From the NCBI GenBank assembly GCA_021848545.1, contig JAJZUL010000008.1:1-64000 (forward strand): a DNA stretch of 64,000 nucleotides. Direction: 5' to 3'. The notes under the pieces are model-generated. The model made no database searches. It saw only the letters and a list, made by a program, of their open reading frames with translations, and had not been told where the DNA came from. Below, piece by piece: positions 1 through 32,249 of the stretch. This DNA is from Pseudomonadota bacterium (lineage in GTDB: Bacteria > Pseudomonadota > Alphaproteobacteria > Rhodospirillales > Magnetospirillaceae). The first letter of the stretch is position 1, and the number at the start of each line of letters is the position of its first letter. Made by a program: the position numbers and the translations under genes.

Positions 1-139
1 CGCCGGCGATCTGACCAACGCCAACATGAATACGGAAAGCGCCAACATGCTGGCCCTTCAGACCCAGCAGCAGCTCGGTATCTCCTCGCTGTCCCTGGCG
101 TCGCAGGCTCAGCAGTCGATCCTCAAGCTGTTCCCGTAA
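1..139 (+). CDS. Flagellin, C-terminal end (partial)
   Basis: The open frame starts at base 2 and runs to a TAA at 137-139, giving the last 45 residues of a protein. The tail is rich in Gln, Ser and Leu, with NMNTESANMLALQTQQQLG followed by a run ending SILKLFP. This is the usual coiled C-terminal D0 helix of bacterial flagellins, the part that packs into the filament core. A strong terminator follows at once, and flbT and flaF, the two flagellin-specific regulators of alphaproteobacteria, come next on the same strand. The 5' part lies outside the window, so paralogue identity cannot be judged. Confidence 0.88.
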   Translation, partial: AGDLTNANMNTESANMLALQTQQQLGISSLSLASQAQQSILKLFP

Positions 140-158
140 GCGGATCGTGTTATGGTGT

Positions 159-188
159 GGGGGCGGCTTCGGCCGCCCCCTTTTTTTT
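159..188 (+). terminator. Rho-independent terminator after flagellin
   Basis: A perfect 9-bp GC stem (159-167 pairing with 172-180) closes a TTCG tetraloop and is followed by eight T residues (181-188). It lies 20 bases after the flagellin stop and 19 bases before the flbT start, so it should insulate the highly expressed flagellin message from flbT. Confidence 0.93.
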
Positions 189-206
189 GGATTCACCACC
201 CCCTCC

Positions 207-605
207 ATGTCTCTGAAAATCAGTCTCGCCCCAGGTGAAAGTGTCGTCATCGGTAAAGCCAAGGTCGAAAATGGCGATGATCGCCGTTGCACCTTGATCG
301 TGACCGGAGAAGAGGTGGTTCTGCGCGGACGCCGGGTCATGCGCGAACAGGATGCGACGACCCCTTTGAAACGCCTGTACTTCGTGGTGCAGGCCATATA
401 TCTTACGGATTACAAGTCTCTTTTGACTCCGCTTTTTATGGATGTCTTGCGGGAGGCTCTTCAATCTTGGCCGGAAATGGCGGTGCCGATTGTGACGGTG
501 GGCGAATTGATCGGGGAGGGGAAATATTACGAAGCCCTTAGCAAGACCTACGAATTGGTGGAACAGGAATCCGGCCGGGACACGGACCCTCGCGAGAAAG
601 GGTAG
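207..605 (+). CDS. flbT: Flagellin mRNA regulator FlbT
   Basis: Encodes 132 residues. FlbT proteins act after transcription on flagellin mRNA in alphaproteobacteria, binding its 5' untranslated region to limit or time flagellin synthesis. The protein begins MSLKISLAPGESVVIGKA and carries the family's beta-rich N-terminus, with a LIVTGEEVVLRG segment, and a helical second half (RLYFVVQAIYL, then VGELIGEGKYYEALSKTYEL). The ATG at 207 is chosen because it gives the family N-terminus; the open frame extends upstream only through the terminator stem. The stop is 3 bases before flaF, so the two are almost certainly co-translated. Confidence 0.93.
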   Translation: MSLKISLAPGESVVIGKAKVENGDDRRCTLIVTGEEVVLRGRRVMREQDATTPLKRLYFVVQAIYLTDYKSLLTPLFMDVLREALQSWPEMAVPIVTVGELIGEGKYYEALSKTYELVEQESGRDTDPREKG

Positions 606-608
606 GGT

Positions 609-1049
609 ATGAGCTACGATCAAGTCGAACGCGACGTCTTGAGCGGACGCAGCCTGGAAGCGCGCGCCTTGTTTCGCAGCGCTCAGCGATTGAGCGACGC
701 CATTCAGTCGACGGATCGCGAACGATTGTTCGAGGCGGTCAGCCTCAATAACAAATTGTGGCTTCTTTTTTTCAGCGAAATCGAAACCGGCCGCGTGCAG
801 CTTCCGCCGGAGGTCGCCCGCAATATCGGCGCCCTGGCCCGTTATGTGCTGAACTGCTCCATACGCGCCTTTTCCCGCGACGCGGAAACCCTGGAATCCC
901 TGGTGACCATCAACCGCCGCATCGCCATCGGCCTGTCGACCGACGGGCCGGCGGAGGCAAGCTCGGCTGCGTCCCACGCCGCGCCAACATCGCCCCCCCA
1001 ACCGACGGCCCCGTCGCCCATCCAGGGCGGCTTGTCGATCAAGGCGTAA
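609..1049 (+). CDS. flaF: Flagellar regulator FlaF
   Basis: Encodes 146 residues. FlaF is the partner of FlbT; in Caulobacter it is needed for flagellin translation and secretion and acts as a flagellin-binding chaperone-like factor. Visible here are the helical family core: an N-terminal YDQVERDVLSGRSLEARAL segment, then NNKLWLLFFSEI and LPPEVARNIGALARYVL. The final 40 residues are a Pro/Ala/Ser-rich tail longer than usual for the family. It sits 3 bases after flbT and is the last small flagellar gene before the giant TPR glycosyltransferase genes. The stop codon touches the left arm of the 144-bp hairpin element. Confidence 0.9.
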   Translation: MSYDQVERDVLSGRSLEARALFRSAQRLSDAIQSTDRERLFEAVSLNNKLWLLFFSEIETGRVQLPPEVARNIGALARYVLNCSIRAFSRDAETLESLVTINRRIAIGLSTDGPAEASSAASHAAPTSPPQPTAPSPIQGGLSIKA

Positions 1050-1192
1050 GAGCCCGACCCGAAAGTCATCATGGCGGCCTGCAAATGGCGGTTTTCTGCG
1101 CTTCCGCTGCTCACGTACATGAAGTACGCTCCGCTGCGGTTCTCGAAAACCGCCATTTTCGGCTCACCCTGCCGACTTTCGGGTCGGGCTCT
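1049..1192. repeat. 144-bp palindromic element (MITE or REP-like)
   Basis: The ends are a perfect 19-bp inverted repeat (1049-1067 and 1174-1192; outer arm AGAGCCCGACCCGAAAGTC). A second 14-bp inverted repeat is nested inside (1083-1096 and 1145-1158), and a small CGTAC/GTACG hairpin sits at the centre (1114-1128). The whole element can fold into one long hairpin. It has no coding capacity that matches a neighbour and no T-tract, so it is not a normal terminator, although it may weaken read-through from flaF into the giant gene. The architecture suits a non-autonomous mobile or REP-type element; only one copy is in this window. The rest of this 275-bp gap shows only the ribosome-binding site of the next gene. 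Confidence 0.75.
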
Positions 1193-1324
1193 AAGATCCG
1201 GCAGCCCCCGAACGAAACCGCTTTGCGATCGGTCGAAAACCGCGCGCGATGGTCGCGATGACATGAATTCGTGGGCGACGGGAGCGGACGAGGCGCCGGA
1301 GGCGGCGAAACAGGGGATCATCAG

Positions 1325-4300
1325 GTGAGTCGAGATCAGCCGACGCGGCCCGTTCCCGCCCAGACCAATCCGGCACCGGGGACCTTGTCGGACGACGATT
1401 TCCAACGTCAGGCGCAAGACGCCCTGTCTGCGCACCGGGCCGGCCGCTACCACGAAGCGATCGCCCATTACCAAAGCCTGCTGGCCCATCGCCCCGCTCT
1501 GGCCGCCCTGCACAGCAATCTGGGCGAGGCTCTTCTCGCCCTGGGTCGCATTGACGAGGCCGCGGATTCCTGCCGCCGCGCCGTCGCCATCGCACCGTCG
1601 GCCCCCGCTTTCACCCTGTTGGGCGCGGCCCTGTTCGCCCAGGGCCATGCGGAAGAGGCGATCGACGCCTGTGGCGACGCCTTGCGTCTCGATCCCCGGC
1701 AGCTTGCGGCCCGCCTTACGCTTGCCGCCGCCCTGTTCGGCGCCGGCCGCCTGACGGAGGCGGATCAGGCCTGCCGCCAGGCCATCGCCCAGGCCCCCAC
1801 CGCCAAGGCGTTTCTGTTGCTGGGCCGGATCGCCACGGCGGCGGGAGACGGGAACGGCGCGCTGGACGCCGCCCGCCGGGCCGCCGCCGCGGATCCGAAT
1901 TCGGTCGATGCCGCCATGGCGCTGGGCGCCGCCCTCAATGACCGGCACCTTTACGCCGAAGCCGAAACGGCGTTCCGCCACGTCATCGGCCTGAAGCCCG
2001 ACAGCGCCCTCGCTTATTCCAATTTGGGCAGCGTCCTGATCGAGCTGGGCCGCGAAACCGAGGCCCTCGACCTCTGCCGACGCGCCGTCGCCCTTGATCC
2101 CGGACTGGCCGCCGCTCACGGCAATCTCGGCCTCGCCGCCTTCACCAGCCGCCAATGGGAAACGGCGACGGCGGCCTTTCGCCAGTCGTTGCGCCTGGAC
2201 CCGTCCGACGCCGGAATCCACATCAATTACGGGACTTGCCTGCAAAACGGCGGTTGGGTGCGCGACGCCGCCGACCAGTACCGGGAGGCGTTGACCCTTG
2301 CGCCGTCCAGCCCCAACGCGCTTCGCAGCCTTCTGCTCAACGCGGCCTATCGGGACGATCTGGACATCGCCGCCTTCAACCGCATCCATCGCGAGGCCGG
2401 CGCCGCCTTCGCCCGGCCGGCCGTCATCGCGCCGCTTTCGGTCGATGCCGATCCCGAACGCCGTCTGCGCATCGGCTATGTCTCGTCGGATTTCCGGAGC
2501 CATCCGGTCGCCGGCAACATGCTGCCCTTCTGGCGCCATCGCGACCGCGAAGGTTTCAGCCAGATCTTCTATGCCGATGTCGCCCAACCCGACGCGACCA
2601 CCGACGAAATCCGGGGACTGGCCGACGGGTGGCACGACATTCGCGGTCTGGACGCCGCGGCCGTCGCCGATCTCGTCCGCGCCGATCGCATCGACATCCT
2701 GGTCCTTCTCGCCGGGCGGTTCGATCGCAATCGCCCCGATCTGGCCTGCCACCGCGCCGCCCCCATCCAGATCAGCCTGCATGATGTCGGCACGTCGGGT
2801 CTGGCGGAGATGGATTACATCGTCGGCGATCGTTGGCTGCTGCCCAAGGGCGGGCCGGAATATTTCTCCGAACGAATCTTGCGGCTGCCGCAATTCTACG
2901 TCGCCGACTGGCCCCGCGATCTGCCCGATCTGTCCGAAGGCCGCTGGACCGGACCGGTGGTGTTCGGCAGCTTCAACGCGCCGGCCAAGATCGGCGACCG
3001 GGTCCTGGCCTGCTGGGGCCGCATTTTGGCGGCGCTGCCCGAATCGCGGCTGGTCCTGAAACATACCGACTCGTTCAACCGCGAGGATCTGCGCGACCGC
3101 GTCCGCACCGCCATAACCGGCGCGGGGGCGTCCGCCGACCAGATCGTCTTCGTCACCGCCAAGGAATCGGGGCGCGTGTTCCTGTCCCGCTATAACGGGA
3201 TCGACGTGGCGCTGGACCCTTTTCCGTTCAGCGGCGCGACCACCAGCTTCACGGCGCTGGCCATGGGGGTGCCGGTGGTGACGCGGCCCATGGATCGCAT
3301 GGTCAGCCGTTGGACCGGGGCGATGCTGTCCCGCCTGGGCCTGGGCGAATTGATCGCCCGCTCCGACGACGATTATGTGGAAACGGCCATCCGCGTCGGC
3401 AGCAACGTCGATTCGTGGCGATCCCGGCGGGGGGACATCCGCGCCCGGCTGGCCGCCTCGCCGATGGTCAGAGGCGCCCATTGGGCCCGGCACCTGGAAC
3501 GCCTGTACCGGGCGGTATGGCGGCGCCATTGCCGGACCGTTGCCGCGCCCCGACCGGCACCGGCGGCGGCAGATACCGACCGCGAAATCGCCGCTTTGGC
3601 CGCCCGGGCCGCCCGGCTGTTCGAGACGGGACACCCCGATGAGGCCGTGGCCGTTCTCGACCGGGCGCTGCTCCTGGCCCCCGGCTGGGCGGGGGGGCAT
3701 TGCGACCGGGGGGTGCTGTTGATGGCGGCGGGTCGCCCCACCGAAGCCGTCACCGCCTATCGCCGGGCCATCGCCCTGGATTCCACCCTGGCCATGGCCC
3801 ATTCCAACCTCGCCGCCGCCCTGCTCGACGGCGGCGAGCCCGCCGCCGCCATCGAAGCGGCGCGGGCCGCCCTGGCGCTGGCCCCCGATCTGGCCGACGC
3901 CCATTACAATCTGGCCGGCGGGCTGGCCGATCTGGCGCGCTACGAGGAGGCGGTCGAGGCCTATCGCCGCGCCCTGGCGCTGGCCCCCGCCCATAGGGAC
4001 GCCGCCTTCAATCTCGGCCTTGCCCTCAACAGCCTGAAGCGATGGGACGAAGCCGCTTCGGTTCTGGAGGCGTTGATCCGGCGCCATCCCGACCATACGG
4101 GCGCCCAACAGGCCCTGGGCGCGGCGCTGTCGGGTCTGAAGCGCCACGAAGAGGCGCAGGCGATCTATCGGCGGATGATCGCGCTGTCGCCCACCCATAT
4201 CCCCGCCTATACCGACCTCGCCGTCGCCCTGATGGTCACGCGCCGTTTCGACGAAGCCGCCGATGTCTGCCGTCGCGCCCTGGAAATCGATCCCGATTCG

Positions 4301-7300
4301 GTCATGGCCCGGTGCGGATTGGCCGATGCCCTGGCGCGACGGAACCAATTCGCCGACAGCATGGCGGAAAGCGAACGCGCCCTCGACCTCGATCCGGGAA
4401 ACAAGACCGCTTATCAGCTCCTGTTCGGAGCGGCGCTCTACCGCGAGGATCTGAGTGCCGAAGCCCTTGTCGATCTCCATCGCCGCCGTTCCGTCCCCTT
4501 TCCCCGTCCCGACGCGACCCCCGCCGCCACCGATCCCGATCCCGAGCGCCGCCTGCGGATCGGTTTCGTCTCGGCGGATTTCCACGGCCATCCGGTGGCC
4601 GGCAATCTGATGCCGGTCCTCGCCCACCACGACCGCGACCGTTTCGCCCTGTATTTCTATGCCGACGTGGACGAACCGGACGCCGTTACCGGCGAATTCA
4701 AGGCTCTGGCCGAAGGCTGGCGCGATATACGGGGGCTGGACGACGAAGGGGTCGCGGCGAAGATCCGCGCCGACAGGATCGACATCCTGGTGCTGCTGGC
4801 CGGCCGTTTCGAGGGCAACCGCCCGACCCTGTCCCTTTACCGGGCGGCGCCGGTGCAGATCAGCATGCATGACGGCGGCACGTCCGGCTTTCGCGAGATG
4901 GATTACTTCATCGCCGACCCATGGCTGGTGCCGTTCGATACCAATGAGTTCTTCGTAGAACGGGTTTTGCGCCTGCCCCTGTTCTATATTCGCGACCTGC
5001 CCCCCGAACTGCCCGATATCGCCGATCGCGGGGACGGGCCGCCGGTCTTCGGCAGCTTCCACAATCCCGCCAAGCTCAATAGCCGGGTCCTCGCCTTGTG
5101 GGGCCGTATTCTGGCCGCGCTCCCCGAAAGCCGGCTGGTTCTGAAATACGAGGGACAGTTCGGCGACGAGGCGGTGCGCCGGCGGGTCCTGGCCGGGCTC
5201 GCGGCCGGCGGCGCGGCCCCCGGCCAGGTCACCATGCCGCAGGGCGGCCGGGAGGCGGGCGGCGCATTCCTGGCCCGCCACAACGATGTCGACCTGGCCC
5301 TCGATCCCTTTCCCTTCTCCGGCTCGACCGCCAGTTTCATGGCGCTGGCCATGGGCGTGCCGGTGGTGACCCGCCCCGCGGATGGTCTGGCCAGCCGCAT
5401 GACCGCGACCATCCTGCATGCCGTCGGCCTGGACGAACTGGTCGCCCGCTCCGACGAGGATTACGTGGACATCGTCCTGGGAATCGCCGGCGATATCGGC
5501 CGGTGGCGATCCCGGCGCCGGGACATCCGCGACCGGATCAAATCCTCGTCGCTGGTCGATGGCGGCCGCTGGGCGCGCTGGATCGAACGCCTGTACCGGG
5601 CGGTCTGGCGCCGCTATTGCCGCCGGGCGGCGCTGACCCCGGCCGACATCGCCCGCCTCGCCGCCGACGCGATGGAAAGCGACAAGGCCGGCCGCCTGAC
5701 CGAAACCGTCCGCCTGCTCCACCAACTGATCGCCGCCAAACCCGATTTCGCCGAGGCCCATTCCAATCTCGGGAGTGTTTTCAAGCGGTTGGGGCATAAC
5801 CGGCGGACGGCGGTCGAATTTCGCCGGACCGTCGCCCTGAAACCCGACGACGCGACGGCATGGTCCAATCTCGGCTCGGCGCTGATCGATTCCTACGCCT
5901 ACGCCGAAGCGGAAACGGCGTGCCGGCGGGCGATCGCTCTCGATCCCCGGCTGGTCGATGCCCATGTCAATCTCAGCGTGGTGGTCTTCCTGCTGGGACG
6001 GGTGGCCGAAACCATGGCCATTCACGAGACCCTGCTTGGCCTGTGCCCGAATCATGTCGGCATCGCCCGAACCCGGCTTTTGGCGGCGATGTACCGGGAC
6101 GATCTCGACACGCGGGCGCTGGCCGACCTGCACCGGGACTACGGGCGCATGTTCGACGTCGCCGTCGTCGCGGAGCCGCCGGCCGATTCCGACCCCGAAC
6201 GGCGCCTGCGGGTGGGGCTGCTGTCCTCGGACTTCCACCATCATCCGGTCGCTTACAACCTGCTGCCGGCCCTCGCCCATCGCGACCGCCGCACCCTGGA
6301 ACTGTTCGTCTATGCCGATGACGACGCGCCCGACAAGACGACCGACCGGGTCCGGGCCGAGGCCGACCATTGGCGCGATGTCGGCCGCCGGACGGATGCC
6401 GATATCGCCGCCGCGATCCGGGCCGACCATATCGACATCCTGGTCATTCTGGCGGGACGGTTCGATCAGAACCGGCCGAACGTCGCCTGCCACCGGGCGG
6501 CACCGGTGCAGATCAGCATGCATGACGTCGCCACCTCCGGCCTGCGGGAGATGGATTACATCATCGGCGATTCCGCGCTGATTCCGCGCCATACGCCCGA
6601 ATGGTTCAGCGAACGCCCGTTGCGCCTGCCCTGTTTCCATCTGCACGACATGCCGGGCGATCTGCCCGCCATCGCCATGACCCGCGCTCCCGGACCGCCG
6701 GTTTTCGGCTGTTTCAACAACCCGAAGAAGATCAGTCCCGCCACGCTCCGGCTGTGGGGCCGCATCCTGGCCGCCGATCCCGGCTCGCGCCTGATGCTGC
6801 ACTATGTAGGCAGCTACCGGGCGCCCGATCTGCGCCGGCGGATCATCGCCGATCTGGTCGCGGCGGGCGCGCGCGCGCGTCAGGTCGAATTCGGGTTCAC
6901 CGATGAGCCGGGCCCGGTATTCCTGGATCGTTACAACCGGATCGACGTCGCCCTGGACCCGTTCCCCTTCAGCGGATCGACCACCACCTTCCAGGCTCTG
7001 TCCATGGGGGTGCCGGTGGTCACTCTGCCGTTGGACCGCATGGTCAGCCGCTGGAGCCTGTCGATCCTGCGCGCCATCGGTCTGGAGGAATGGGCCGCAT
7101 CCTCGGAAGAGGCCTATGTGGACACGGCGCTGAGGCTGGCCCGCGACGCCGAGTCCTGGCGCGCCCGGCGTCCCGAAATCCGCGCCCGGCTGGCGGCCTC
7201 GGCGGTCACCGACGGCGCCGGCTACGCCCGCCATCTGGAGCGCCTGTTCCGCGCGACATGGCGCCGCGCCTGCCGAGGGAACCGGCCGGAGCCGGCCGAT

Positions 7301-10300
7301 CCCGACCGGCTGGCCCGGGAGGCGATGGACCACCAGCGCGCCGGCCGCCTGGACCAAGCGGTGGCGACGCTGGAACGGTTGCTGGCCGTCCGACCGGATT
7401 TGGCGGCGGCCCGCGCCAATCTCGGCGTCGCGCTCAAGGATCTCGGCCGCCTGGACGAGGCGGTCACCGCCTTTACCGAAGCCGCCCGGCGAACGCCCGA
7501 TGATCCCGTCATCCTGTCCAATCTCGGCGCCGCCCTGCTCGATCGCAGTGATTACGCGGGCGCCCGGGCCGCCCTGACGCGCGCCATCGATCTCAAACCG
7601 GATCTGGCCGAGGCCCACGGCAATCTCGGCGCCCTGTTGGCCCGTCTGGGGGAACACGCCGGGGCGATGGCGTGCTACGACAAGGCCCTGGCGCTCCACC
7701 CCGACGATATCGCCATCCGCAAGAAGCGGATGGCGTCGGCCCTTTATCGCGGCGATTACGACGACGCGGCGCTGAACGCCGTCCTGGCGGAGGCGGCCGA
7801 CGCGCTGCCGGGACCGACCGGCCTGGCCCGCCCGTCCACCGATCCCGATCCCGACCGGCGGCTTCGGATCGGTCTGGTCTCGTCGGATTTCCACGAACAC
7901 CCCTTGGCCCGAAACCTGTTGCCCGGCCTGGAGCACCACGATACCGGGCGGGTCGCGCTGTGCTTCTACAGCGACGTCGCCCGGCCCGATGCCGTGACCG
8001 CCCGCTTTCGCGCCCTGGCCGAAATCTGGCGCGACGTGGGCCGGCTGGACGACGCGGCCCTGGCGGAACGGATTCGCGCCGACAAGATCGACATCCTGGT
8101 GATCCTGGCGGGACGGTTCGATCGCAACCGGCCGGCGCTGGCCCGCCACCGCGCGGCGCCGATCCAGATCAGCATGCACGACGTGGCCACGTCGGGTCTG
8201 GCCGAGACGGATTACATCATCGGCGATCCCAGGTTGCTGCCGCGCCGCACCGCCGAATGGTTCAGCGAACGCCCGCTTCGCCTGTCCCATTTCTATCTGG
8301 CGGCGCCGCCCGCCAACCTGCCCGCCCTCGCCGAGACCAGGAACGGCCCGCCGGTCTTCGGCTGTTTCAACAATCCCGGCAAGATCACGGACCGCGTCCT
8401 CGCCATGTGGGGCCGCATCCTCGCCGCGTTGCCCGCCAGCCGTCTCGTGCTCGGCTATCTGGACGCCTATGGGGCACCCGAACAGCGCGACCGCATCCTC
8501 GCCGGCCTCGGCGCCCAGGGCGCCGCATTGGGCGAGCGAATCGTTTTCCAAACCCTCTACCAGCCCGATTCCGCCTTCCTTGAGCGCTATAACGGCATCG
8601 ACGTGGCCCTGGACACCTTTCCCTTCAGCGGCTCGACCACCACCTTCCAGGCCCTGTCCATGGGCGTGCCGGTGGTGACCCGGCCCCTGGACCGCATGGT
8701 CAGCCGCTGGAGCGCCGCCCTGCTCGCCCCCCTGGGTCTGGAGGCGCTGATCGCCGACAGCGACGATTCCTATGTGGACATCGCCGTCGCCGCCGCCCGC
8801 GATGTGGAATCCTGGCGGGGCCGGCGGCGGGACATCCGCGCCCGACTGATCGCCTCGCCCTTCTGCGACCAGCGGCGTTGGGCGCGGCAGATGGAACGCC
8901 TGTACCGGGCGGTATGGCGCCGCCATTGCCGGATGGAAACCGGCCCCGGACCATCGCTCATCGCCCCCACCGGAGAAGACGAAATCGCCGCCCGCCGGCT
9001 TCAGGCCGAGGCCGGCGCCGCCTGGGGGCGGGGGGACCACGCCGAAGCCGTCGCCCTGCTCCGCCGCGCCCTGGCGCTCAATCCCGACGACGCCCGGGGA
9101 CGGTGCGATCTCGGCTCGATGCTCAAGGCCCGGGGAGAGCGCGAGGAGGCCATCGCCGCCTACCGCAAGGCCATCGCCCTTGATCCCGGTCTGGCCATGG
9201 CCCATTCCAATCTCGGCGTCGCCCTGCAGGAGGCGGGACGGCTGGACGAAGCGGTCGATGCCTATGCCAGGGCCATCGCCACCGACCCCGGATTCGCCTC
9301 GGCCCGATCCAACCTCGCGGTCGCCCTGCTGGCCCTGGACCGGACCGAGGAATCCATCGCCGCCTGCCGCGACGCCATCGCCGCCATCCCCGGCCTTGCC
9401 GAAGCCCATTACAATCTCGGGCTGGCTTTGGACCGGGCGGGCGATGGCGCCGGCGCGGTGGCGGCCTGGACCCAGGCGACGTTGCTGAAGCCCGATTACC
9501 CGGCCGCCTTCATCCAGCTGGCCTTCGGCCTGAAGGCGCGGGACCGCCTCAAGGATGCCGTGGCCGCGGCCCGCCAGGCCGTCGCCCTGGCCCCGGATCT
9601 GGCCGAAACCCAGACCACGCTCGGCCGGATGCTGGTGGCCGACGAACGCTTCGACGATGCCGTCGAACCGTTCCGCCGGACGCTGGAGCTGGCCCCCGGC
9701 AATGCCGAGGCCTATACCGATCTCGGCGTCGCGCTGGACGGCGCCAAACGCTACGACGAGGCGCGAACGGTCTATGAACACGCGCTGGGCCGCGGGCTTG
9801 AGACCGCCGCCATCCACAGCAATCTCGGCATCGTCTACTGGCGGCTGGGCCGGTCCCGCGACGCGTTCGACCAGATGGAACTGGCCGTCCGCCTGGAACC
9901 GGACAACCCGCTTCATGCCCGCCTCCAGCTCTTGACCGCGATCTATCTGGAAGACATCGACAGCGACGCTTTCGCCGACCTTCACCGCCGTTTCGGCCGC
10001 ACCTTCGGGGGGAAGGCAACGGGGCGGCCGGCCACCGATCCCGATCCGGAACGCCGGATCAGGATCGGCTTCCTGTCCTCGGATCTGGCCCGCCACCCGG
10101 TCGCGTCCAACCTGCTGCCGGTGTTGCCCCATTACGACCGCGACCGGGTGTCGCTCCATTTCTATGCTCAGAGGACCAAGGAGGACGGGTTCACCGCCGC
10201 CATCCGCGCCCAGGCCGACGGCTGGCGCATCGTCTCCGGTCTCGACGACGAAACGGTCGCCCGCCAGATCCGCGCCGACAAGATCGACATTCTGGTGATC

Positions 10301-12892
10301 ATGGGCGGCCGTTTCGACGACAACCGGCCGACCGTGGCCTGCTGGCGGGCGGCGCCGATCCAGATCAGCCTGCATGACGGCGCCACGTCCGGCCTCGATG
10401 ACATGGATTACATCATCGGCGATCCCTGGCTGACCCCCCGCGGGACCACCGAATATTTCTCCGAGCGGCCGCTGCGCCTGCCGTATTTCTATGTGGCCGA
10501 CCTCCCGTCCGGGCTCCCCGAGCCGGTGGATCGTCGCGGGGACGGGCCGCCGGTCTTCGGCTGCTTCAACAATCCGGCCAAGATCGGCCCGCGCCTTCTG
10601 GGCCTGTGGGGCCGCATCCTGGCCGCCCTGCCCGACAGCCGGCTGATCCTGAAATACCAGGACGCCTATAATTCGACCGATCACCGGACGCGTTTCCTGG
10701 ACGCCCTGGTCGGGGGCGGCGCCGCCCCGGACCAGGTGGTGTTCATCGGCCGCAAGGATTCCTTCGCCGATTTCATGGCCCGCTACAACGCCATCGACGT
10801 CGCCCTGGACACCTTCCCCTTCAGCGGGTCCACCACCACCTTCCAGGCCCTGGTCATGGGCACGCCCGTCGTCACCCGGCCGACGAACCGCATGATCAGT
10901 CGCTGGAGCGCTTCGATGCTCCACGCGCTGGATATGACCGAGTTGATCGCCGACAGCGACGAATCCTATGTGGACATCGCCGTCCGCACCGCCCGCGACG
11001 CCGCCCGCTGGTGGGCGCGCCGCCCGGCCATCCGCGCCCGGCTGACCGCCTCACCGCTTTGCGACGGCGCCCGCTGGGCGCGGCAGAGCGAACGCCTGTT
11101 CCGCGCCGTCTGGCGCCGCTATTGCCACGGCGCGCCCGCCATGCCGCCGGCGACGGCCGACGCCCCGGCCGAGACTCCGGCCGAGGCGCCCCTGGCGCCG
11201 GTCGCCGCGCCGAAAATGAGCAAGACCGACGAGCTCACCGCCAAGGCCGCCGGCCTTCACCGCGCCGGCCGCCTGGACGAGGCCGAACGCCTGTACCGGG
11301 AGGCTTTGGCCCTGGACCCGGACGAGCCCGTCGTCCTGCACTATCTGGGGGTTCTTCTTCACGACCGGGGCGACAGCGCCCATGCGGTCGAGCTGCTGGA
11401 ACGGGCGGTCGCCCTGGCGCCGAAATGGCCGGAATTCCACGCCAATCTGGGGATGGTCCTGCGCAAACTGGGCCGAACCGACGAGGCCGCCGAAAGCTAT
11501 CGCCGCTCGCTGGCGCTTCAGCCCGACAATGCGGTGACCCATTACAATCTCGGCAATCTGCTGGCGGCGGAGGGCCGGCTCGACGAAGCGCTGACGGCCT
11601 ACCGGCGGGCGGTGGACCTGGCCCCCCATATTCCCGAATGCCAGAACGGGCTGGGCGCCACCCTGCGCCGCCTGGGCCGCACCGACGAGGCCATCGCCGC
11701 CCTGACCGAAGCCCTGCGCCAACGGCCCGCCTTCGCCGAAGCCCAAAACAATCTGGGCGCCTGCTTCTACGATCTGCGCGATCTCGACCGGGCGCGGGCC
11801 TGCTACGCCGAGGCGATCCGCATCAATCCCGATTACGCCGAGGCCCGCAAGAATCTGGGCGCGGCCCTGTACGAGCAGGGCGATACCGACGGCGCCATCG
11901 CCCAATATCGCGGGGCCATCGCCATCGCCCCCGCCTATGCCGACGCCCATTTCCATCTGGGCTGCGCCCTGCTGCGCCGGGGCGATTTCCCCCAGGGCTG
12001 GGCCGAATATGAATGGCGCCGCGAGATGCCCGCCTTTCCCGCCCAGACCTGGCCGGTCCCGGAATGGCGGGGCGAGCCGCTGGCGGGCCGCCGGCTGCTG
12101 CTGTACGGCGAACAGGGATATGGCGACATCATCCAGTTCGCCCGTTTCGCGCCGGTGCTGGCGGAAGCCGGCGCCCACGTCATCCTGTGCGTGGCGCCGG
12201 CGCTGATGCGTCTGATGCGAACCCTGTCCGGCGTGGGCGAAATCGTCGAGGTCAACCGGCCGCTGCCGCCCTTCGATTTCCATATCCCGCTGTTGAGCGT
12301 TCCCCATCGGCTGGGCCTGACCCTGGATACCATTCCCGCCGTCCCCTATCTGCGGGCCGAACCGGACGCCGCCGCGCGCTGGCGGAAACGGCTGGCGGCG
12401 CGGCCCGGTCTCAAGGTGGGGCTGGTCTGGGCGGGCAATCCCCGCCGCGACGACCGCGACAATTGGCTGGTGGATCGGCGCCGCTCGCTGTCGCTCGCCG
12501 CCTTCGCGCCGCTGGCCGGCACAGCCGGAATCACCCTGGTCAGCCTGCAAAAGGGCGAGCCGGCGGCGGAGGCGGGCCATCCGCCCCCAGGGCTCGATCT
12601 TTTCGACCCCATGGCCGAGATCGGGGATTTCGCCGACACCGCGGCGTTGATTTCGGCCCTCGATCTGGTGATCGGCGTCGATACCTCGGTCATCCATCTG
12701 GCCGGCGCCCTGGGCGTGCCGGTTTGGGTGCTGTCGCGTTACGACGGCTGCTGGCGCTGGCTGGAGAAAGGCGAGCGATCCCCCTGGTATCCCAGCCTGC
12801 GCCTGTTCCGGCAGGAAACGCCCGGCGACTGGACGGAAACCATCGCCCGCCTCGCCGGCGCGCTGGCCGAATTCGGGCGCGACCGGCCATGA
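1325..12892 (+). CDS. Giant protein with five TPR-GT41 modules and a GT9-like end
   Basis: About 3855 residues. Six TPR arrays alternate with five GT41 (SPINDLY/O-GlcNAc transferase type) catalytic regions at about residues 374-738, 1072-1434, 1622-1984, 2173-2537 and 2904-3268. A last TPR block is followed by a GT9-like domain from about 3587 ([20 protein letters not shown]). Each GT41 copy starts with an RLRIGxVSSDFxxHPV-type segment and keeps a lysine in [10 protein letters not shown] and an aspartate in [19 protein letters not shown]. By eye these match the UDP-sugar-binding Lys842 and Asp925 of human OGT. No signal peptide or membrane segment is seen, so it is probably cytoplasmic. GTG 1325 is preferred because AGGGG lies 8 bases upstream; a GTG at 1271 is also in frame. 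Position after flagellin-flbT-flaF suggests modification of flagellar proteins, but donor and acceptor are unknown. The stop overlaps the next start (ATGA). Confidence 0.9.
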   Translation: MSRDQPTRPVPAQTNPAPGTLSDDDFQRQAQDALSAHRAGRYHEAIAHYQSLLAHRPALAALHSNLGEALLALGRIDEAADSCRRAVAIAPSAPAFTLLGAALFAQGHAEEAIDACGDALRLDPRQLAARLTLAAALFGAGRLTEADQACRQAIAQAPTAKAFLLLGRIATAAGDGNGALDAARRAAAADPNSVDAAMALGAALNDRHLYAEAETAFRHVIGLKPDSALAYSNLGSVLIELGRETEALDLCRRAVALDPGLAAAHGNLGLAAFTSRQWETATAAFRQSLRLDPSDAGIHINYGTCLQNGGWVRDAADQYREALTLAPSSPNALRSLLLNAAYRDDLDIAAFNRIHREAGAAFARPAVIAPLSVDADPERRLRIGYVSSDFRSHPVAGNMLPFWRHRDREGFSQIFYADVAQPDATTDEIRGLADGWHDIRGLDAAAVADLVRADRIDILVLLAGRFDRNRPDLACHRAAPIQISLHDVGTSGLAEMDYIVGDRWLLPKGGPEYFSERILRLPQFYVADWPRDLPDLSEGRWTGPVVFGSFNAPAKIGDRVLACWGRILAALPESRLVLKHTDSFNREDLRDRVRTAITGAGASADQIVFVTAKESGRVFLSRYNGIDVALDPFPFSGATTSFTALAMGVPVVTRPMDRMVSRWTGAMLSRLGLGELIARSDDDYVETAIRVGSNVDSWRSRRGDIRARLAASPMVRGAHWARHLERLYRAVWRRHCRTVAAPRPAPAAADTDREIAALAARAARLFETGHPDEAVAVLDRALLLAPGWAGGHCDRGVLLMAAGRPTEAVTAYRRAIALDSTLAMAHSNLAAALLDGGEPAAAIEAARAALALAPDLADAHYNLAGGLADLARYEEAVEAYRRALALAPAHRDAAFNLGLALNSLKRWDEAASVLEALIRRHPDHTGAQQALGAALSGLKRHEEAQAIYRRMIALSPTHIPAYTDLAVALMVTRRFDEAADVCRRALEIDPDSVMARCGLADALARRNQFADSMAESERALDLDPGNKTAYQLLFGAALYREDLSAEALVDLHRRRSVPFPRPDATPAATDPDPERRLRIGFVSADFHGHPVAGNLMPVLAHHDRDRFALYFYADVDEPDAVTGEFKALAEGWRDIRGLDDEGVAAKIRADRIDILVLLAGRFEGNRPTLSLYRAAPVQISMHDGGTSGFREMDYFIADPWLVPFDTNEFFVERVLRLPLFYIRDLPPELPDIADRGDGPPVFGSFHNPAKLNSRVLALWGRILAALPESRLVLKYEGQFGDEAVRRRVLAGLAAGGAAPGQVTMPQGGREAGGAFLARHNDVDLALDPFPFSGSTASFMALAMGVPVVTRPADGLASRMTATILHAVGLDELVARSDEDYVDIVLGIAGDIGRWRSRRRDIRDRIKSSSLVDGGRWARWIERLYRAVWRRYCRRAALTPADIARLAADAMESDKAGRLTETVRLLHQLIAAKPDFAEAHSNLGSVFKRLGHNRRTAVEFRRTVALKPDDATAWSNLGSALIDSYAYAEAETACRRAIALDPRLVDAHVNLSVVVFLLGRVAETMAIHETLLGLCPNHVGIARTRLLAAMYRDDLDTRALADLHRDYGRMFDVAVVAEPPADSDPERRLRVGLLSSDFHHHPVAYNLLPALAHRDRRTLELFVYADDDAPDKTTDRVRAEADHWRDVGRRTDADIAAAIRADHIDILVILAGRFDQNRPNVACHRAAPVQISMHDVATSGLREMDYIIGDSALIPRHTPEWFSERPLRLPCFHLHDMPGDLPAIAMTRAPGPPVFGCFNNPKKISPATLRLWGRILAADPGSRLMLHYVGSYRAPDLRRRIIADLVAAGARARQVEFGFTDEPGPVFLDRYNRIDVALDPFPFSGSTTTFQALSMGVPVVTLPLDRMVSRWSLSILRAIGLEEWAASSEEAYVDTALRLARDAESWRARRPEIRARLAASAVTDGAGYARHLERLFRATWRRACRGNRPEPADPDRLAREAMDHQRAGRLDQAVATLERLLAVRPDLAAARANLGVALKDLGRLDEAVTAFTEAARRTPDDPVILSNLGAALLDRSDYAGARAALTRAIDLKPDLAEAHGNLGALLARLGEHAGAMACYDKALALHPDDIAIRKKRMASALYRGDYDDAALNAVLAEAADALPGPTGLARPSTDPDPDRRLRIGLVSSDFHEHPLARNLLPGLEHHDTGRVALCFYSDVARPDAVTARFRALAEIWRDVGRLDDAALAERIRADKIDILVILAGRFDRNRPALARHRAAPIQISMHDVATSGLAETDYIIGDPRLLPRRTAEWFSERPLRLSHFYLAAPPANLPALAETRNGPPVFGCFNNPGKITDRVLAMWGRILAALPASRLVLGYLDAYGAPEQRDRILAGLGAQGAALGERIVFQTLYQPDSAFLERYNGIDVALDTFPFSGSTTTFQALSMGVPVVTRPLDRMVSRWSAALLAPLGLEALIADSDDSYVDIAVAAARDVESWRGRRRDIRARLIASPFCDQRRWARQMERLYRAVWRRHCRMETGPGPSLIAPTGEDEIAARRLQAEAGAAWGRGDHAEAVALLRRALALNPDDARGRCDLGSMLKARGEREEAIAAYRKAIALDPGLAMAHSNLGVALQEAGRLDEAVDAYARAIATDPGFASARSNLAVALLALDRTEESIAACRDAIAAIPGLAEAHYNLGLALDRAGDGAGAVAAWTQATLLKPDYPAAFIQLAFGLKARDRLKDAVAAARQAVALAPDLAETQTTLGRMLVADERFDDAVEPFRRTLELAPGNAEAYTDLGVALDGAKRYDEARTVYEHALGRGLETAAIHSNLGIVYWRLGRSRDAFDQMELAVRLEPDNPLHARLQLLTAIYLEDIDSDAFADLHRRFGRTFGGKATGRPATDPDPERRIRIGFLSSDLARHPVASNLLPVLPHYDRDRVSLHFYAQRTKEDGFTAAIRAQADGWRIVSGLDDETVARQIRADKIDILVIMGGRFDDNRPTVACWRAAPIQISLHDGATSGLDDMDYIIGDPWLTPRGTTEYFSERPLRLPYFYVADLPSGLPEPVDRRGDGPPVFGCFNNPAKIGPRLLGLWGRILAALPDSRLILKYQDAYNSTDHRTRFLDALVGGGAAPDQVVFIGRKDSFADFMARYNAIDVALDTFPFSGSTTTFQALVMGTPVVTRPTNRMISRWSASMLHALDMTELIADSDESYVDIAVRTARDAARWWARRPAIRARLTASPLCDGARWARQSERLFRAVWRRYCHGAPAMPPATADAPAETPAEAPLAPVAAPKMSKTDELTAKAAGLHRAGRLDEAERLYREALALDPDEPVVLHYLGVLLHDRGDSAHAVELLERAVALAPKWPEFHANLGMVLRKLGRTDEAAESYRRSLALQPDNAVTHYNLGNLLAAEGRLDEALTAYRRAVDLAPHIPECQNGLGATLRRLGRTDEAIAALTEALRQRPAFAEAQNNLGACFYDLRDLDRARACYAEAIRINPDYAEARKNLGAALYEQGDTDGAIAQYRGAIAIAPAYADAHFHLGCALLRRGDFPQGWAEYEWRREMPAFPAQTWPVPEWRGEPLAGRRLLLYGEQGYGDIIQFARFAPVLAEAGAHVILCVAPALMRLMRTLSGVGEIVEVNRPLPPFDFHIPLLSVPHRLGLTLDTIPAVPYLRAEPDAAARWRKRLAARPGLKVGLVWAGNPRRDDRDNWLVDRRRSLSLAAFAPLAGTAGITLVSLQKGEPAAEAGHPPPGLDLFDPMAEIGDFADTAALISALDLVIGVDTSVIHLAGALGVPVWVLSRYDGCWRWLEKGERSPWYPSLRLFRQETPGDWTETIARLAGALAEFGRDRP

Positions 12893-15800
12893 CCCGCAAC
12901 AAACGCATTCTCAACGATCTCAACGAAGCGTCCCGCCTGTACCAGGGGGGCGATCCCGCCGGCGCCGCGCGGATCATGGGCAAACTCCTCGCCCGAGAGC
13001 CCAATTTCGCCGAGGGCCACGCCGATCACGGCGTGATGCTGGCCGCCGCCGGCCGGTTGGGCGACGCCGTCGCCGCCTGCCGCCGCGCCATCGCCTTGCA
13101 ACCCGGCCTGGGCGCGGCCCATCTTCAACTCGCCGCCGCCCTGCTGGCCTTGAACCGGCCGGACGAAGCCCTGGCCCCGGCGCGCCGGGCCGCCATCCTG
13201 GCGCCCAACCAGTTGGAACCGGCCTTTCATCTGGCCACCGCCTTGTTTCTGACCGGCGATTTCACCGCCGCCGCCGCCGCCTTTCGCCGCGCCGCCGACA
13301 TCGATCCCGGCAATGCCCGCATCCGCAACAATATCGGCCTCGCCCTCAAAGAGGCGGGACGGCTGGACGAATCCGCCGCCGCCTTCCGTGAGGCCATCGA
13401 TCGCGACGATACCCTGGCCGACGCCTGGAACAATCTCGGCACCGTGCTGCAGGCCCAGGGCGCCGCCACGGAAGCCGGCGCCTGTTACGACCGGGCCCTG
13501 GCCCGGCAGCCGGGCACGCCGCTTTACGCCGCCAACACGCTGGTCGCCGCCCTTTACCGCGACGATATCGACCTGACCGAACTGGCCCGGCGCCATCTGA
13601 CCTTCGGCCGGACCTTCGGCCGGGCCTTGCCGCGTCCGGCCGCCGCCGACCATGGCGACGACCGCCTGAAGATCGGCTTCGTCTCGTCCGATTTCCGCGA
13701 CCATCCGGTCGCCATTAATCTGCTGCCCGGCCTTCGTCATCACGACCGCACGCGCATAGCGCTTCATTTCTACAGCGCGACCGTAAAGACCGACGCGGTG
13801 ACGGAAAGCCTGCGCGCCCTGGCCGACGGCTGGCGCGAGATCGGCACCCTCGACGATGGCGGGGCCGCCGCGGCGATCCGCGCCGACGGGATCGACATCC
13901 TGGTGTTTCTGGCCGGGCGCTTCGACCATAACCGCCCGACCCTTGCCGAATGCCGCGCCGCGCCGATCCAGATCAGCCTGCACGACCCGGCGACATCGGG
14001 CCTGACCGCCATGGATTACATCATCGGCGATCCCGTGCTGCTGCCGCGTCTGGGAACCGAATTCTTCAGCGAGCGTCCGCTCCGCCTGCCTCACTTCTAT
14101 CTGGCCGATCCGCCCCACGATTTGCCCGCCATCAGCCAGACCCGGAACGGGCCGCCGGTCTTCGGCTGTTTCAACAATCCCGCCAAGATCGGCCCCCGCG
14201 TCTTGGGCCTGTGGGGGCGCATTCTGGCCGCCCTGCCGGAAAGCCGGCTGGTGCTGAAATTCCTCGACCGCTATGCCGTTCCCTCGATCCGCCGGCGAAT
14301 TCTCGAGACCCTGGTGGCGGCCGGGGCCAAGCCCGGGCAGATCGAATTTCTGACCGGCTGGGAGGAGCGGGGCGCGCTGCTGGAGCGCTACAATGGTATC
14401 GACGTGGCCCTGGACACCCTGCCCTTCAGCGGGTCCACCACCACCTTCCAGGCCCTGTGCATGGGCGTGCCGGTGGTCACGCGGCCCCTGGACCGCATGG
14501 TCAGCCGCTGGAGCGCCGCGCTTTTGGCCCCCCTGGCGCTGGACGAACTGATCGCCGACAGCGACGATTCCTATGTGGCGATCGCCATCCGGATGGCCGG
14601 GGAAGCCCCCCAGTGGCGGGGGCGCCGACATGAGATCAGCGCCCGGCTGGCGGCGTCGCCCTTTTGCGACGGCGCGCGCTGGGCGCGGCACATGGAACGG
14701 CTGTACCGCGCCGTCTGGCGCCGTCACCGCCGCGATCGGGACGGGCGCCCCACCCTGGCGGAAGCCCGGCAGCCGCTGATCGAGGGACGGTACCGGGATG
14801 CCGTCGCCGCCTATCGCCGGATCGTGACCCGCGCGCCCGATTCGGTGGAGGCCCAGGCCAATCTGGGCACCGCCCTCAAAGGTTTGGGCCTTCACCGGCT
14901 GGCCGCCGCCGCCTATGGCCGCGCCGTGGTGCTGGCGCCCGACAATGCCGAGATCCTGACCAATCTCGGCGAGCTTCTGACGGTGCTGAAACGGCCGGAA
15001 GAGGCGGAAGCCGCCTGCGCCCGCGCCGTCGCCCTGGCCCCCGGACTGGCCGAGGCCCATTACAATCGGGGCAACGCGCTGCGCTTCCTCGATCGCTATC
15101 CCGATGCCGAGGCCGCCTATACCCGGGCCCTGGCGCTGCGGCCCACCTTCGCCGACGCCCTCGTCAATCGCGGCTCGGTGCTGGCCTGGCTGGGGCGCCA
15201 TGACGAGGCCCTGGCCGATTATCGCCGCGCGCTGGAACTGGCCCCCGACCGGGCCGAGACCCATCATGATCTCGGCAATCTTCTGATCGCCATCGGCCGT
15301 CCGGACGAAGCGGCCGTCCATTATCAGGCCGCCCTCGAATGCCGGCCCGATTTGATCGCGCCGGCCCGCGGCGTGCTGATGGCGGCGGCCTATCGCGACG
15401 ATCTCGACCAGGAGGCATGGGCCGAAATCCACCGCGCCTTCGGCCGGCGCTTCGACCGCGACAATGGGGGGAATGCCTTCGCCAATTCCCCGGATTCCGA
15501 GCGCCCGCTGAGGATCGGGCTGCTTTCGTCGGATTTCCGCGGCCATCCCGTCGCCGTCAACCTGCTGCCGGTGCTGCGCCGCCACGACCGCCGGCGAATT
15601 TCCCTGTTCTTTTACGCCCAGGTCGGCAAGGCGGACGATATCACCGACCAGTGCAAGGCCCTGGCCGACGGCTGGCGCGATATCGCCGATCTCGACGACG
15701 AGGCGCTGGCCCGGCGCATCCGCGAGGACGGCATCGACATCCTGGTGCTGCTGGCCGGCCGCTTCGACGAAAACCGGCCCCAGGTGGCCGCCCGGCGGGC

Positions 15801-18057
15801 GGCGCCGGTGCAGATCAGCTTGCACGACGTCGCCACGTCGGGCCTGAAGGATATGGATTACATCATCGGCGATTCCCGGCTGATTCCCCGCCGGACCACC
15901 GAGTTTTTCACCGAACGGCCGCTGCGGCTGCCCCATTTCGCCATCGCCGATTTTCCCGCCGATCTGCCGGAGATCGAGGATGTCCGCGCCGACGCCCCCC
16001 CCGTCTTCGGCTCGTTCAACAACCCGGCGAAAATGACCCCGCGCGTGCTCGCTTTGTGGGGACGCATTCTCAAGGCCCTGCCGGAAAGCCGGCTGGTCCT
16101 CAAATTCCAGCGCCTCTATGCCAACGACACGGTGTCCCGCCGCATCCGGGACGGGATCGTCGCCGGCGGCGGCCAGGCCCACCAGATCGCGTTCCTGAGC
16201 GAAGCGGACAGCGCCGCCACCTTCATCAGGCGCTACAATGGCATCGACGTGGCGCTGGACACCTTTCCCTTCAGCGGATCGACCACCACCTTCCAGGCCC
16301 TGTGCATGGGCGTGCCGGTGGTCACGCGGCCCCTGGACCGCATGGTCAGCCGCTGGAGCGCGTCCATGCTCCACACCCTCGGTCTGGACGAATTGATCGC
16401 CGACAGCGACGATTCCTATGTGGACATCGCCGTCCGGGCGGCGACGAACGCCGCCGACTGGCGGGCGCGACGCCGGGAGATCAGCGCCCGGCTGGCCGCG
16501 TCGCCCCATTGCGCCCCCGCCCGCTGGGCGCGGCACATCGAACGGCTGTACCGCGCCGTCTGGCGCCGTCATTGCCGCCGGATCGCCGCGCGGACCGAAA
16601 GCGAACGGATGGCGGCGGCGGCGATGCACGCCCATGGGCGGGGCCGGCCCGAGGAGGCGGCCGCTTTGTTGCGAAAAGCCCTTCGGCTGAGCCCCGATTA
16701 CGCCGAAGCCCAATGCGCCCTGGGCGCCACCCTGGCCGGACTGGGCCGCCTGGACGAAGCCATCGCCGCCTACGACAAGGCCGTTTCCCTCAAGCCCGAT
16801 TTCGCCGTCGCCTGGTCCAATCTCGGGGTCGCCCGGCAGACCCTGGGGCAAATGGACGAAGCGGTCGTCGCCTACGATCGGGCCATCGCCGCCGATCCCG
16901 CCAATGCCGCCGCCCTGACCAATCTCGGTCTGGTCCTGACCGAACTGGGCCGCACCGACGAGGCGCTGGCCGCCTGTTCCCGCGCCATCGCCCTGGCGCC
17001 GGGCCAGGCCGAGGCCTGGTCCAATCTCGGTCTGGCGCTACGCATGGCCGGCCGCACCGACGAAGCCCTCGCCGCCCGGCGCCGGGCCGTCGCCATCGAT
17101 CCCAATAACGCCAAAGGCCACCGCAATTTGGCCATGAGCCTGCTGCTGAACGGCGAATACCGCGAGGGGTTCGCCGAATTCGAATGGCGCCGCGCCCTGG
17201 GCGACTGCCCGCCCCCGGACTCGACGCGGCCGGAATGGCGGGGCGAGCCGGTGGCCGGACGCACACTCCTGCTTTACGGCGAGCAGGGGCTGGGCGATGT
17301 CATCCAGTTCGCCCGCTACGCCACGCCCCTGGCCGAAAGCGGGGCGCGGGTGATTTTAGCGGTGCCGCGTCCCCTGGCGCGTCTGCTGGCGACAATTCCC
17401 GGCGTGGCCGGAATCGCCGACCGCACGCCCCTGCCCGACCATGATTGGCATTTCCCGTTGCTCAGCCTGCCCCATCGGCTGGGCACCACCGTGGAGAGCG
17501 TTCCCGCCGCCTGCCCCTATGTCGCGGCCGACCCGGCGGCGAAAGCGGCGTGGCGGAAACGACTGGACGCCCTGCCCGGCCGCAAGGTGGGGCTGGTCTG
17601 GTCGGGCGATCCCCGCCCCCACGACGTGGCCTGCGCCCTGGTGGATAGGCGCCGTTCCCTGACCCTGGCGCAACTGGCGCCCCTGGCCGCCGTGCCCGGC
17701 ATCACCCTGGTCAGCCTGCAAAAAGGCGCGCCGGCGGGTCAGGCCCGCACCCCGCCGCCGGGCATGGATCTGATCGACTGGATGGACGAGATCGACGATT
17801 TCGCCGATACCGCCGCCCTGGCCGACGCCCTCGATCTGGTGATCACCGTCGATACCTCGGTGGCCCATCTGGCCGGCGCCCTGGCCAAGCCGGTGTGGAT
17901 ATTGTCGCGGTTCGACGGGTGCTGGCGCTGGCTGTTGGAACGCGCCGATTCCCCCTGGTACCCCACCGCGCGCCTGTTCCGCCAGCCGGCGCCCGGCGAT
18001 TGGAGCCCGGCCATCGCCGAGTTGGTCCGGGCGCTGACGTTTTGGATTGAATCGTGA
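12889..18057 (+). CDS. Second TPR-GT41 protein, two modules plus GT9-like end
   Basis: About 1722 residues with the same plan as its neighbour: TPRs (about 14-211), GT41 (258-619), TPRs (621-824), GT41 (868-1234), TPRs (1238-1437), then a GT9-like domain (about 1455-1722; [19 protein letters not shown], later [17 protein letters not shown]). Both GT41 copies keep the PAKI/PAKM lysine and the LDTLP/LDTFP aspartate expected at the nucleotide-sugar site. The ATG overlaps the TGA of the giant upstream gene, so translation is coupled. The frame stays open for another 292 codons upstream, but that stretch is the other reading frame of the upstream gene. The two proteins probably arose by duplication and unequal growth in module number. 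The stop is only 6 bases from the convergent efflux gene. Confidence 0.9.
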
Positions 18058-18063
18058 CGGCGG

Positions 18064-19044: not shown

Positions 19045-19178
19045 GCACCTTCCCTCGCTTGCCCGACTTCCACCCTCTATATGGGAACGACCGCGTCGCA
19101 TCCCAGGACCAGGGGCATCTGGCCGCCGGCCGACAAAATGGATACCCTGCCGTGCCCCACTTTGCCAGGAGCCCCGTC

Positions 19179-32245: not shown

Positions 32246-32249
32246 GGCC

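Follow-up and report, generated by a model that had tools for sequence, protein, structure and literature searches.

Strings of GT41 glycosyltransferase modules in two giant proteins encoded beside flagellin in a member of the Magnetospirillaceae

Glycosyltransferases of family GT41 usually carry one catalytic domain per chain, and two of them, OGT and SPINDLY, put single sugars directly onto Ser/Thr. What, then, would a bacterium do with two overlapping genes that encode long strings of such domains next to its flagellin? We addressed this question in a 64,000-nucleotide stretch of DNA (the window; contig JAJZUL010000008.1 of assembly GCA_021848545.1, a draft genome of 85 contigs and 99.75% completeness). 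Our reading, to which we give a probability of roughly 0.62, is that the two products (A and B) are cytosolic multi-headed O-glycosyltransferases for the flagellin encoded upstream, with heads that would act in parallel at many sites; we infer the substrate, donor and activity.

The gene order on the forward strand is flagellin-flbT-flaF-GT-GT, with the two giant genes last. This order had been described in a sequence-only reading of the window and is borne out, with the correction that the contig start truncates the flagellin gene: only its C-terminus (2..139; Flagellin_C E 1.5e-7) lies in the window, broken at position 1, and the remaining N-terminal 535 aa form the end of another contig (G000:C56). 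At the break, C56 closes with ...NLINTLQ and C51 opens with AGDLTNAN.... The central region of the flagellin is long and Ser/Thr-rich (about 335 aa, 32% Ser+Thr). Downstream are flbT (183..605; NCBIfam FlbT E 4e-22), flaF (609..1049; NCBIfam FlaF E 2e-19) and, between flaF and the first glycosyltransferase gene, an inverted-repeat element of about 148 bp (1049..1196, no strand given) of which the genome holds about 40 copies. Gene A (P0001; 1325..12892) has a GTG start and encodes 3855 aa, and gene B (P0002; 12889..18057) encodes 1722 aa, its ATG start sitting within an ATGA overlap with gene A, which confirms the two overlapping genes and the lengths first proposed. An Rfam search of window positions 1-20000 returned no matches, and a scan of positions 900-1500 found no promoter or terminator.

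Searches with the Pfam profile PF13844 (GT41) matched five places in A and two in B, all above the Pfam cut-off (120-141 bits per module among the modules scanned, with E-values down to 4e-41), and TPRs precede every one of the seven catalytic regions, as the sequence-only reading had it. In A, the catalytic regions, all on the forward strand, are A1 (2462..3538, TPRs 1325-2461), A2 (4550..5626, TPRs 3539-4549), A3 (6203..7279, TPRs 5627-6202), A4 (7859..8935, TPRs 7280-7858) and A5 (10055..11131, TPRs 8936-10054); in B, on the same strand, they are B1 (13663..14736, TPRs 12889-13662) and B2 (15502..16581, TPRs 14737-15501). The predicted structure of module B1 (pLDDT 95.8) has a TPR superhelix leading into a GT41 catalytic fold of two lobes and superimposes on SPINDLY (7y4i) with a TM-score of 0.90 and an rmsd of 3.7 Å.

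At the C-terminus of each giant protein is a glycosyltransferase of a second kind, in which a GT9-like domain follows its own TPRs (hereafter the CT unit); this unit had been overlooked when seven modules were counted. A is thus five GT41 modules plus a CT unit and B two plus a CT unit, nine units in total. The CT domain of A (11981..12889, forward strand, TPRs 11132-11980) scores 23.5 bits with Glyco_transf_9, above the cut-off of 22, and that of B (17152..18054, forward strand, TPRs 16582-17151) scores 19.8 bits, slightly below it; the two are 62% identical. The CT unit of B is modelled as an alpha/beta structure (pLDDT 93.8), and PDB alignments of the whole CT model are dominated by the TPRs, with an rmsd of 11-13 Å across the whole. 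A sequence search of solved structures with the CT domain yielded no credible relative. The unit has the layout of FlmG, that is, N-terminal TPRs and then a GT-B-type domain, where the assignment of the glycosyltransferase fold comes from Pfam.

The sequence-only reading had also held that all seven copies keep the Lys and Asp of the nucleotide-sugar site and so look active rather than decayed. The donor-site Lys (hOGT K842, SPY K665) is indeed invariant in all seven modules; K665 is essential in SPY (PMC9715652). Equivalents of SPY D491/H495 (hOGT D554/H558) are likewise present throughout. The Asp, in contrast, is not kept: at the position of hOGT D925, a Glu in SPY, no module has an acidic residue, the site being occupied by Q in A3, A4, A5, B1 and B2, by T in A1 and by M in A2. 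An acidic residue at this position is common yet variable across the GT41 family and hence not defining, and Q occurs there in 14 of 35 subfamily members. All seven modules are complete and read in frame, and each differs from the subfamily at only 0-2 of 46 conserved columns; given so few differences and the frequency of Q in the subfamily, we reject decay of the modules. Judged from sequence conservation, the seven copies thus appear active overall, though not by way of the Asp that had been cited.

Further support for a link to flagellin comes from relatives, in which a GT41 or CT gene lies within about 1.5 kb of flaF at 16 of 29 flaF loci. One of these relatives (G007), whose FlaF and FlbT share 62% and 69% identity with those of the window, has a fused CT-GT41 gene after flbT-flaF; FlaF identity is 61-63% across G007 and G014. 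In four relatives (L168, L172, L175, L176), flagellin lies between an upstream CT gene and a downstream GT41 gene, CT genes of 585-590 aa adjoin flagellin in relatives, and five loci (L047, L065, L071, L080, L098) have rows of separate GT41 genes around flagellin, flaF or flbT. Glycosyltransferase genes are therefore linked to flagellin, and the linkage is conserved, as at a flagellin glycosylation locus. The flaF-linked GT41 genes of relatives nevertheless form a distant clade, and the tree rejects their orthology with the window modules. In the flanks read around the nearest single-module relatives (L002-L009, L023, L030, L031), none of flagellin, flaF and flbT is present, and the subfamily as such is therefore not bound to flagellin.

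Proteins with several GT41 domains, which the sequence-only reading had suggested searching for, are supported as a real architecture, which recurs in Desulfobacterota, Betaproteobacteria and one planctomycete, with up to at least nine modules. Those of Desulfuromonadales and Desulfatirhabdium resemble the window proteins in carrying many TPR-GT41 modules per chain (three to at least nine) and lie mostly next to flagellin or type IV pilin where the flanks are readable. They differ in that many are linked to pilin, in that the modules from Desulfatirhabdium group in a clade by themselves, and in that a CT fusion within Desulfuromonadales occurs only at L217, where a CT-CT-GT41-GT41 protein directly adjoins flagellin. 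Among the long GT41 loci of Desulfuromonadales, 15 of 18 adjoin flagellin (seven) or type IV pilin (eight), as against 0 of 20 control stretches from the same genomes (Fisher p 5e-8, a value that is too small, as these genomes are mutually related). No filament gene is seen at some multi-glycosyltransferase loci (the P. marisnigri array, L038, L113, L218, L223). Taken as a whole, comparative genomics favours filament glycosylation as the probable role. In the openly accessible literature searched, we found no such proteins described under multi-domain GT41, GT41 with flagellin, or Geobacter pilin glycosylation.

How the two proteins might work can be outlined on this basis. The TPR superhelices would hold newly made flagellin before its export, and each GT41 unit would transfer a single sugar to a Ser or Thr of the flagellin central region; several heads acting in parallel at different sites would give greater coverage and rate. 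The C-terminal unit of each protein may add a different kind of sugar, and the ATGA overlap may couple translation of A and B. As to the link between the long Ser/Thr region and the number of modules, it rests on one genome. All seven GT41 modules fall in a single clade of the tree and hence arose by local duplication, and because the modules of A4-A5-CT are the nearest relatives of those in B, B is probably a duplicate of the last third of A.

Could the strings be something else? That mis-assembled repeats have inflated a shorter true gene might be suspected in a draft whose adjacent flagellin gene is split between contigs. DNA identity between modules, however, does not exceed about 75% over 1 kb, protein identity is 55-71%, and other, independent genomes have comparable multi-module genes; we therefore reject an assembly artefact, whose probability is negligible. 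A mostly scaffolding or chaperone role, in which the TPRs bind flagellin and several of the glycosyltransferase domains are no longer catalytic, could draw on the loss of the acidic donor residue in A1 and A2 and its replacement by Gln in the others. This is very improbable, as the catalytic Lys, the His and nearly all conserved columns are intact in all seven modules, and the Gln is common in the subfamily.

The rivals that keep the modules catalytic concern what they build and on what. In an assembly line, the modules would act in sequence to build on flagellin one oligosaccharide whose first or last sugar would come from the terminal unit. Two kinds of glycosyltransferase per protein would fit this, as would the variation of the donor site (Q, T, M), which may mean different sugars; we nonetheless consider it unlikely, given that OGT and SPINDLY transfer single sugars, and that the modules are nearly equivalent paralogues within one clade, with B resembling a partial duplicate of A. 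The sequence-only reading had offered multi-site and assembly-line glycosylation of flagellin together: the flagellin part is upheld by synteny among relatives and within an unrelated order, and the two modes are not separated by it, parallel multi-site action being the simpler reading. Less likely still is another target, such as a surface adhesin, an envelope polysaccharide or some other cytosolic protein, with the adjacency to flagellin incidental. The closest single-module relatives are not next to flagellin and the large P. marisnigri array (L117) adjoins a long secreted-looking protein, but several unrelated GT41 and CT genes have repeatedly used the flagellin-flaF position, and filament association is found also in another order (Desulfuromonadales).

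With SPINDLY and OGT (CAZy GT41), each module shares the TPR superhelix, the two-lobed catalytic region and the catalytic Lys; the window proteins differ in having five and two catalytic modules per chain, a terminal GT9-like unit and Q, T or M at the acidic site. Caulobacter FlmG is a soluble TPR-glycosyltransferase that binds and glycosylates flagellin (PMC7591256), and comparison with it, also drawn in the sequence-only reading, is reasonable, with the amendment that the FlmG-like part is the C-terminal unit, which that reading did not mention. The window enzymes would likewise be soluble TPR-glycosyltransferases of the flagellin pathway, and their CT unit shares the FlmG layout; as a difference, it comes after GT41 modules in the same chain. 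NeuB had no match in the window genome and was recovered by the same search in Caulobacter; a Caulobacter-type pseudaminic acid pathway is thus lacking, and a pseudaminic acid donor by that route is unsupported. It is reasonable that the window enzymes may work in an FlmG-like way. The flagellin glycosylation islands of enterobacteria also contain GT41 (SPINDLY-type) genes, assigned to flagellin modification by location as in the window; in the parts of that source consulted, these are single genes, many with a methyltransferase domain, and no strings of catalytic domains are reported (PMC4875605).

Strung-together glycosyltransferases beside flagellin or pilin genes recur in unrelated bacteria and suggest that motility filaments can be sugar-coated in a way that is little described. 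More tentatively, and at somewhat less than even odds, strings of TPR-GT41 and TPR-GT9-like units may be widespread, undescribed "polyglycosyltransferases" that evolved several times beside flagellin or type IV pilin genes, the number of heads setting the density of decoration or the number of sugars before export. Chains of five to at least nine complete enzymes by filament genes in unrelated phyla would represent a new principle by which proteins are glycosylated densely or in order, and the modules would serve as a ready-made set for studying site choice by TPRs and change of donor specificity. Under the same reading, the pilins of Desulfuromonadales (Geobacter relatives), whose pili are much studied, would be expected to be glycosylated.

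The source assembly of the window is a draft (3.17 Mb, 85 contigs, 99.75% complete), with the window lying at the start of contig C51. Gene A (1325-12892, plus strand; GTG start, 3855 aa, or 3873 aa from an alternative upstream GTG at 1271) and gene B (12889-18057, plus strand; 1722 aa) are joined by an ATGA overlap and together fill 1325-18057. A Pfam profile search returned five PF13844 (GT41) matches in protein A (P0001) and two in protein B (P0002), all exceeding the cut-off, and a TPR block precedes every catalytic region, confirming the five-plus-two arrangement in overlapping genes described in the sequence-only reading. The seven catalytic regions span 358-360 aa, with pairwise identities of 55-70%. 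The predicted structure of module B1 (pLDDT 95.8) matches Arabidopsis SPINDLY (7y4i) over the whole TPR-GT41 unit (TM 0.90, rmsd 3.7 Å), and B1 is thus modelled as a complete SPINDLY-like enzyme; the remaining six modules share its layout. Nevertheless, the inventory of seven units was not the complete tally, as the unit ending each protein had been overlooked. Past the last GT41 region, both proteins carry an extra TPR block followed by a glycosyltransferase domain of ~300 aa (together, the CT unit), so the machine comprises five GT41 modules plus CT and two GT41 modules plus CT, i.e. nine glycosyltransferase units. The Glyco_transf_9 score of CT is 23.5 bits in A (above the cut-off of 22) and 19.8 bits, just below it, in B; the two copies are 62% identical. 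The predicted CT structure (pLDDT 93.8) has alternating strands and helices, and the PDB matches to the whole model were led by its TPRs. Seven more CT-type domains occur elsewhere in the genome. A 3360 aa open frame antisense to gene A (842-10924, minus strand) was not counted as a gene, as it was interpreted as a by-product of high-GC coding on the opposite strand. Two adjoining RND efflux pump genes (AcrB family) lie at 29150-35369 on the minus strand.

In SPINDLY, the GDP phosphates are bound by N661, K665, and T748, of which K665 is essential (PMC9715652). The corresponding donor-site Lys is invariant in the alignment of all seven modules, as had been claimed, and the Asp-His pair matching hOGT D554/H558 is retained. 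The claim that an Asp is likewise kept did not stand: the hOGT D925 position is Gln in five modules (A3, A4, A5, B1, B2), whereas A1 has Thr and A2 has Met. Alignments place Glu there in SPINDLY and Thermobaculum OGT, and Gln is a frequent residue at this site across the subfamily (14 of 35 members). With 0-2 departures per module at 46 conserved columns, versus 0-5 in other members, the modules appear intact rather than decayed, in agreement with the earlier view, and we read them as seven intact enzymes of predicted activity. Donor handling possibly differs between modules, and A1 and A2 are the least certain of the seven as intact enzymes.

A collapsed or expanded assembly repeat is expected to show near 100% identity, whereas the highest inter-module DNA identity over a kilobase is about 75%; repeat mis-assembly was therefore ruled out. 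A tree built from 88 GT41 regions (support as SH-aLRT) places the window's modules in a single clade (95), within which A4 is nearest to B1 and A5 to B2, so that gene B resembles a duplicate of the final third of A (A4-A5-CT). Across the order (317 genomes), no further frame carrying at least three modules of the subfamily was listed; two-module frames were found in Paramagnetospirillum marisnigri (1221 aa) and, at lengths of 1430 and 1502 aa, in the relative G026.

Upstream of gene A sit flbT, flaF, and the final 45 aa of flagellin. Contig C56 ends in a 535 aa flagellin piece (last residues ...NLINTLQ) and window position 2 resumes with AGDLTNAN...; because these ends fit, we infer a single split gene. 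Its central region is about 335 aa long (32% Ser+Thr), and that of the flagellins at the compared loci is 50-168 aa. A MITE-like inverted-repeat element of ~148 bp (1049-1196) lies between flaF and gene A, with about 40 listed copies genome-wide at 93-98% identity. On another contig of the same genome (C52; L024, 3705-9055), an ordinary single GT41 gene immediately precedes a 951-aa flagellin/FlgL-like gene, a second GT41-filament pairing. When 29 flaF loci within the family were surveyed (~1.5 kb each side), a GT41 or CT gene was present at 16, typically in the order flagellin-flaF-GT41. Four genomes have an additional CT gene upstream of flagellin (L168, L172, L175, L176), genome G007 has a CT-GT41 fusion after flbT (69% identity to the window's copy) and flaF (62%), and rows of separate GT41 genes are found around flagellin, flaF, or flbT at L047, L065, L071, L080, and L098. 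In G026 (L164, G026:C101), flbT-flaF-CT is accompanied by a NeuB-like frame two genes on (by eye), a NeuC-like frame, and a large adjoining flagellin, making this a probable nonulosonic acid flagellin glycosylation locus. The relatives' flaF-linked GT41 genes form a clade distant from the window's modules, so different GT41 lineages have come to occupy the same position beside flagellin, a pattern that favours function over an inherited neighbourhood.

The search for proteins with multiple GT41 domains that had been proposed, run as a scan of named genomes plus follow-up searches, found proteins of 2 to at least 9 modules in other phyla. A Desulfatirhabdium butyrativorans MAG encodes a 6568 aa open frame with at least nine modules that runs off the contig end (L100, 20-19723, DZCT01000003.1), as well as a four-module protein. 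Fused modules number six in a Pelobacter MAG, five in a Desulfuromonadales MAG, and three in a Geobacter MAG, and two-module proteins occur in one betaproteobacterium and one planctomycete. The Desulfatirhabdium modules form their own clade (SH-aLRT 100), so multiplication was independent at least there and in the window's lineage; those of Pelobacter and Desulfuromonadales interleave in the tree and thus have a common ancestral string. Before any neighbours were inspected, eighteen Desulfuromonadales loci were picked because their GT41 frames are long or adjacent, a selection not fully blind as pilin was already known at a few. Type IV pilin adjoins 8 of these and flagellin 7, versus a filament gene in 0 of 20 control stretches from the same genomes (Fisher p 5e-8, a value too small because the genomes are related). 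At L217, a 2321 aa chain (CT-CT-GT41-GT41) immediately adjoins flagellin. Giant multi-GT41 genes lie immediately 3' of short type IV pilin genes at L072 (8050-20281), L101 (4582-15934), L114 (7014-13342), and L209 (2055-14379). A Burkholderiales MAG (L121 and L122; G084:C1, 128-144 kb) has a row of at least seven separate GT41 genes downstream of pilin genes, two of which were found in L094, with a CT gene adjoining pilin; this row is the unfused counterpart of the fused proteins. We would like to note exceptions to the filament link: P. marisnigri has ~15 GT41 genes in 45 kb (contig 82-127 kb; L116, L117, L041) beside a long secreted-looking protein, with no flagellin or pilin in the region viewed. 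Further exceptions are L038, L113, L218, and L223, together with the single-module proteins most closely related to the modules of the window.

The Caulobacter enzyme FlmG is a soluble TPR-glycosyltransferase whose TPRs bind flagellin, and it is required and sufficient for glycosylation with pseudaminic acid before export (PMC7591256). Proteins A and B are FlmG-like by layout. NeuB was not found in the window's 99.75% complete genome, making the Caulobacter-type donor unlikely. The TPR blocks in both proteins may hold flagellin in the cytosol while the seven GT41 heads would add single sugars in parallel at many sites of its Ser/Thr-rich region; the CT units would add a second kind of sugar, and the ATGA overlap may couple the two proteins. 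We prefer parallel to sequential action on two grounds: the modules are paralogues that are nearly equivalent, and GT41 enzymes are known to transfer a single sugar onto Ser/Thr or Asn.

Judged from sequence, genes A and B are a real, intact, and unusual variant of known families (GT41; FlmG-like by layout). No description of multi-headed filament glycosyltransferases was found in the open-access literature; A and B would belong to this broader class, whose function is predicted. In the Desulfuromonadales with pilin-adjoining giant genes, the arrangement implies that pilin may be glycosylated by a TPR-GT41 enzyme, which, if cytosolic, would need to act ahead of membrane insertion.
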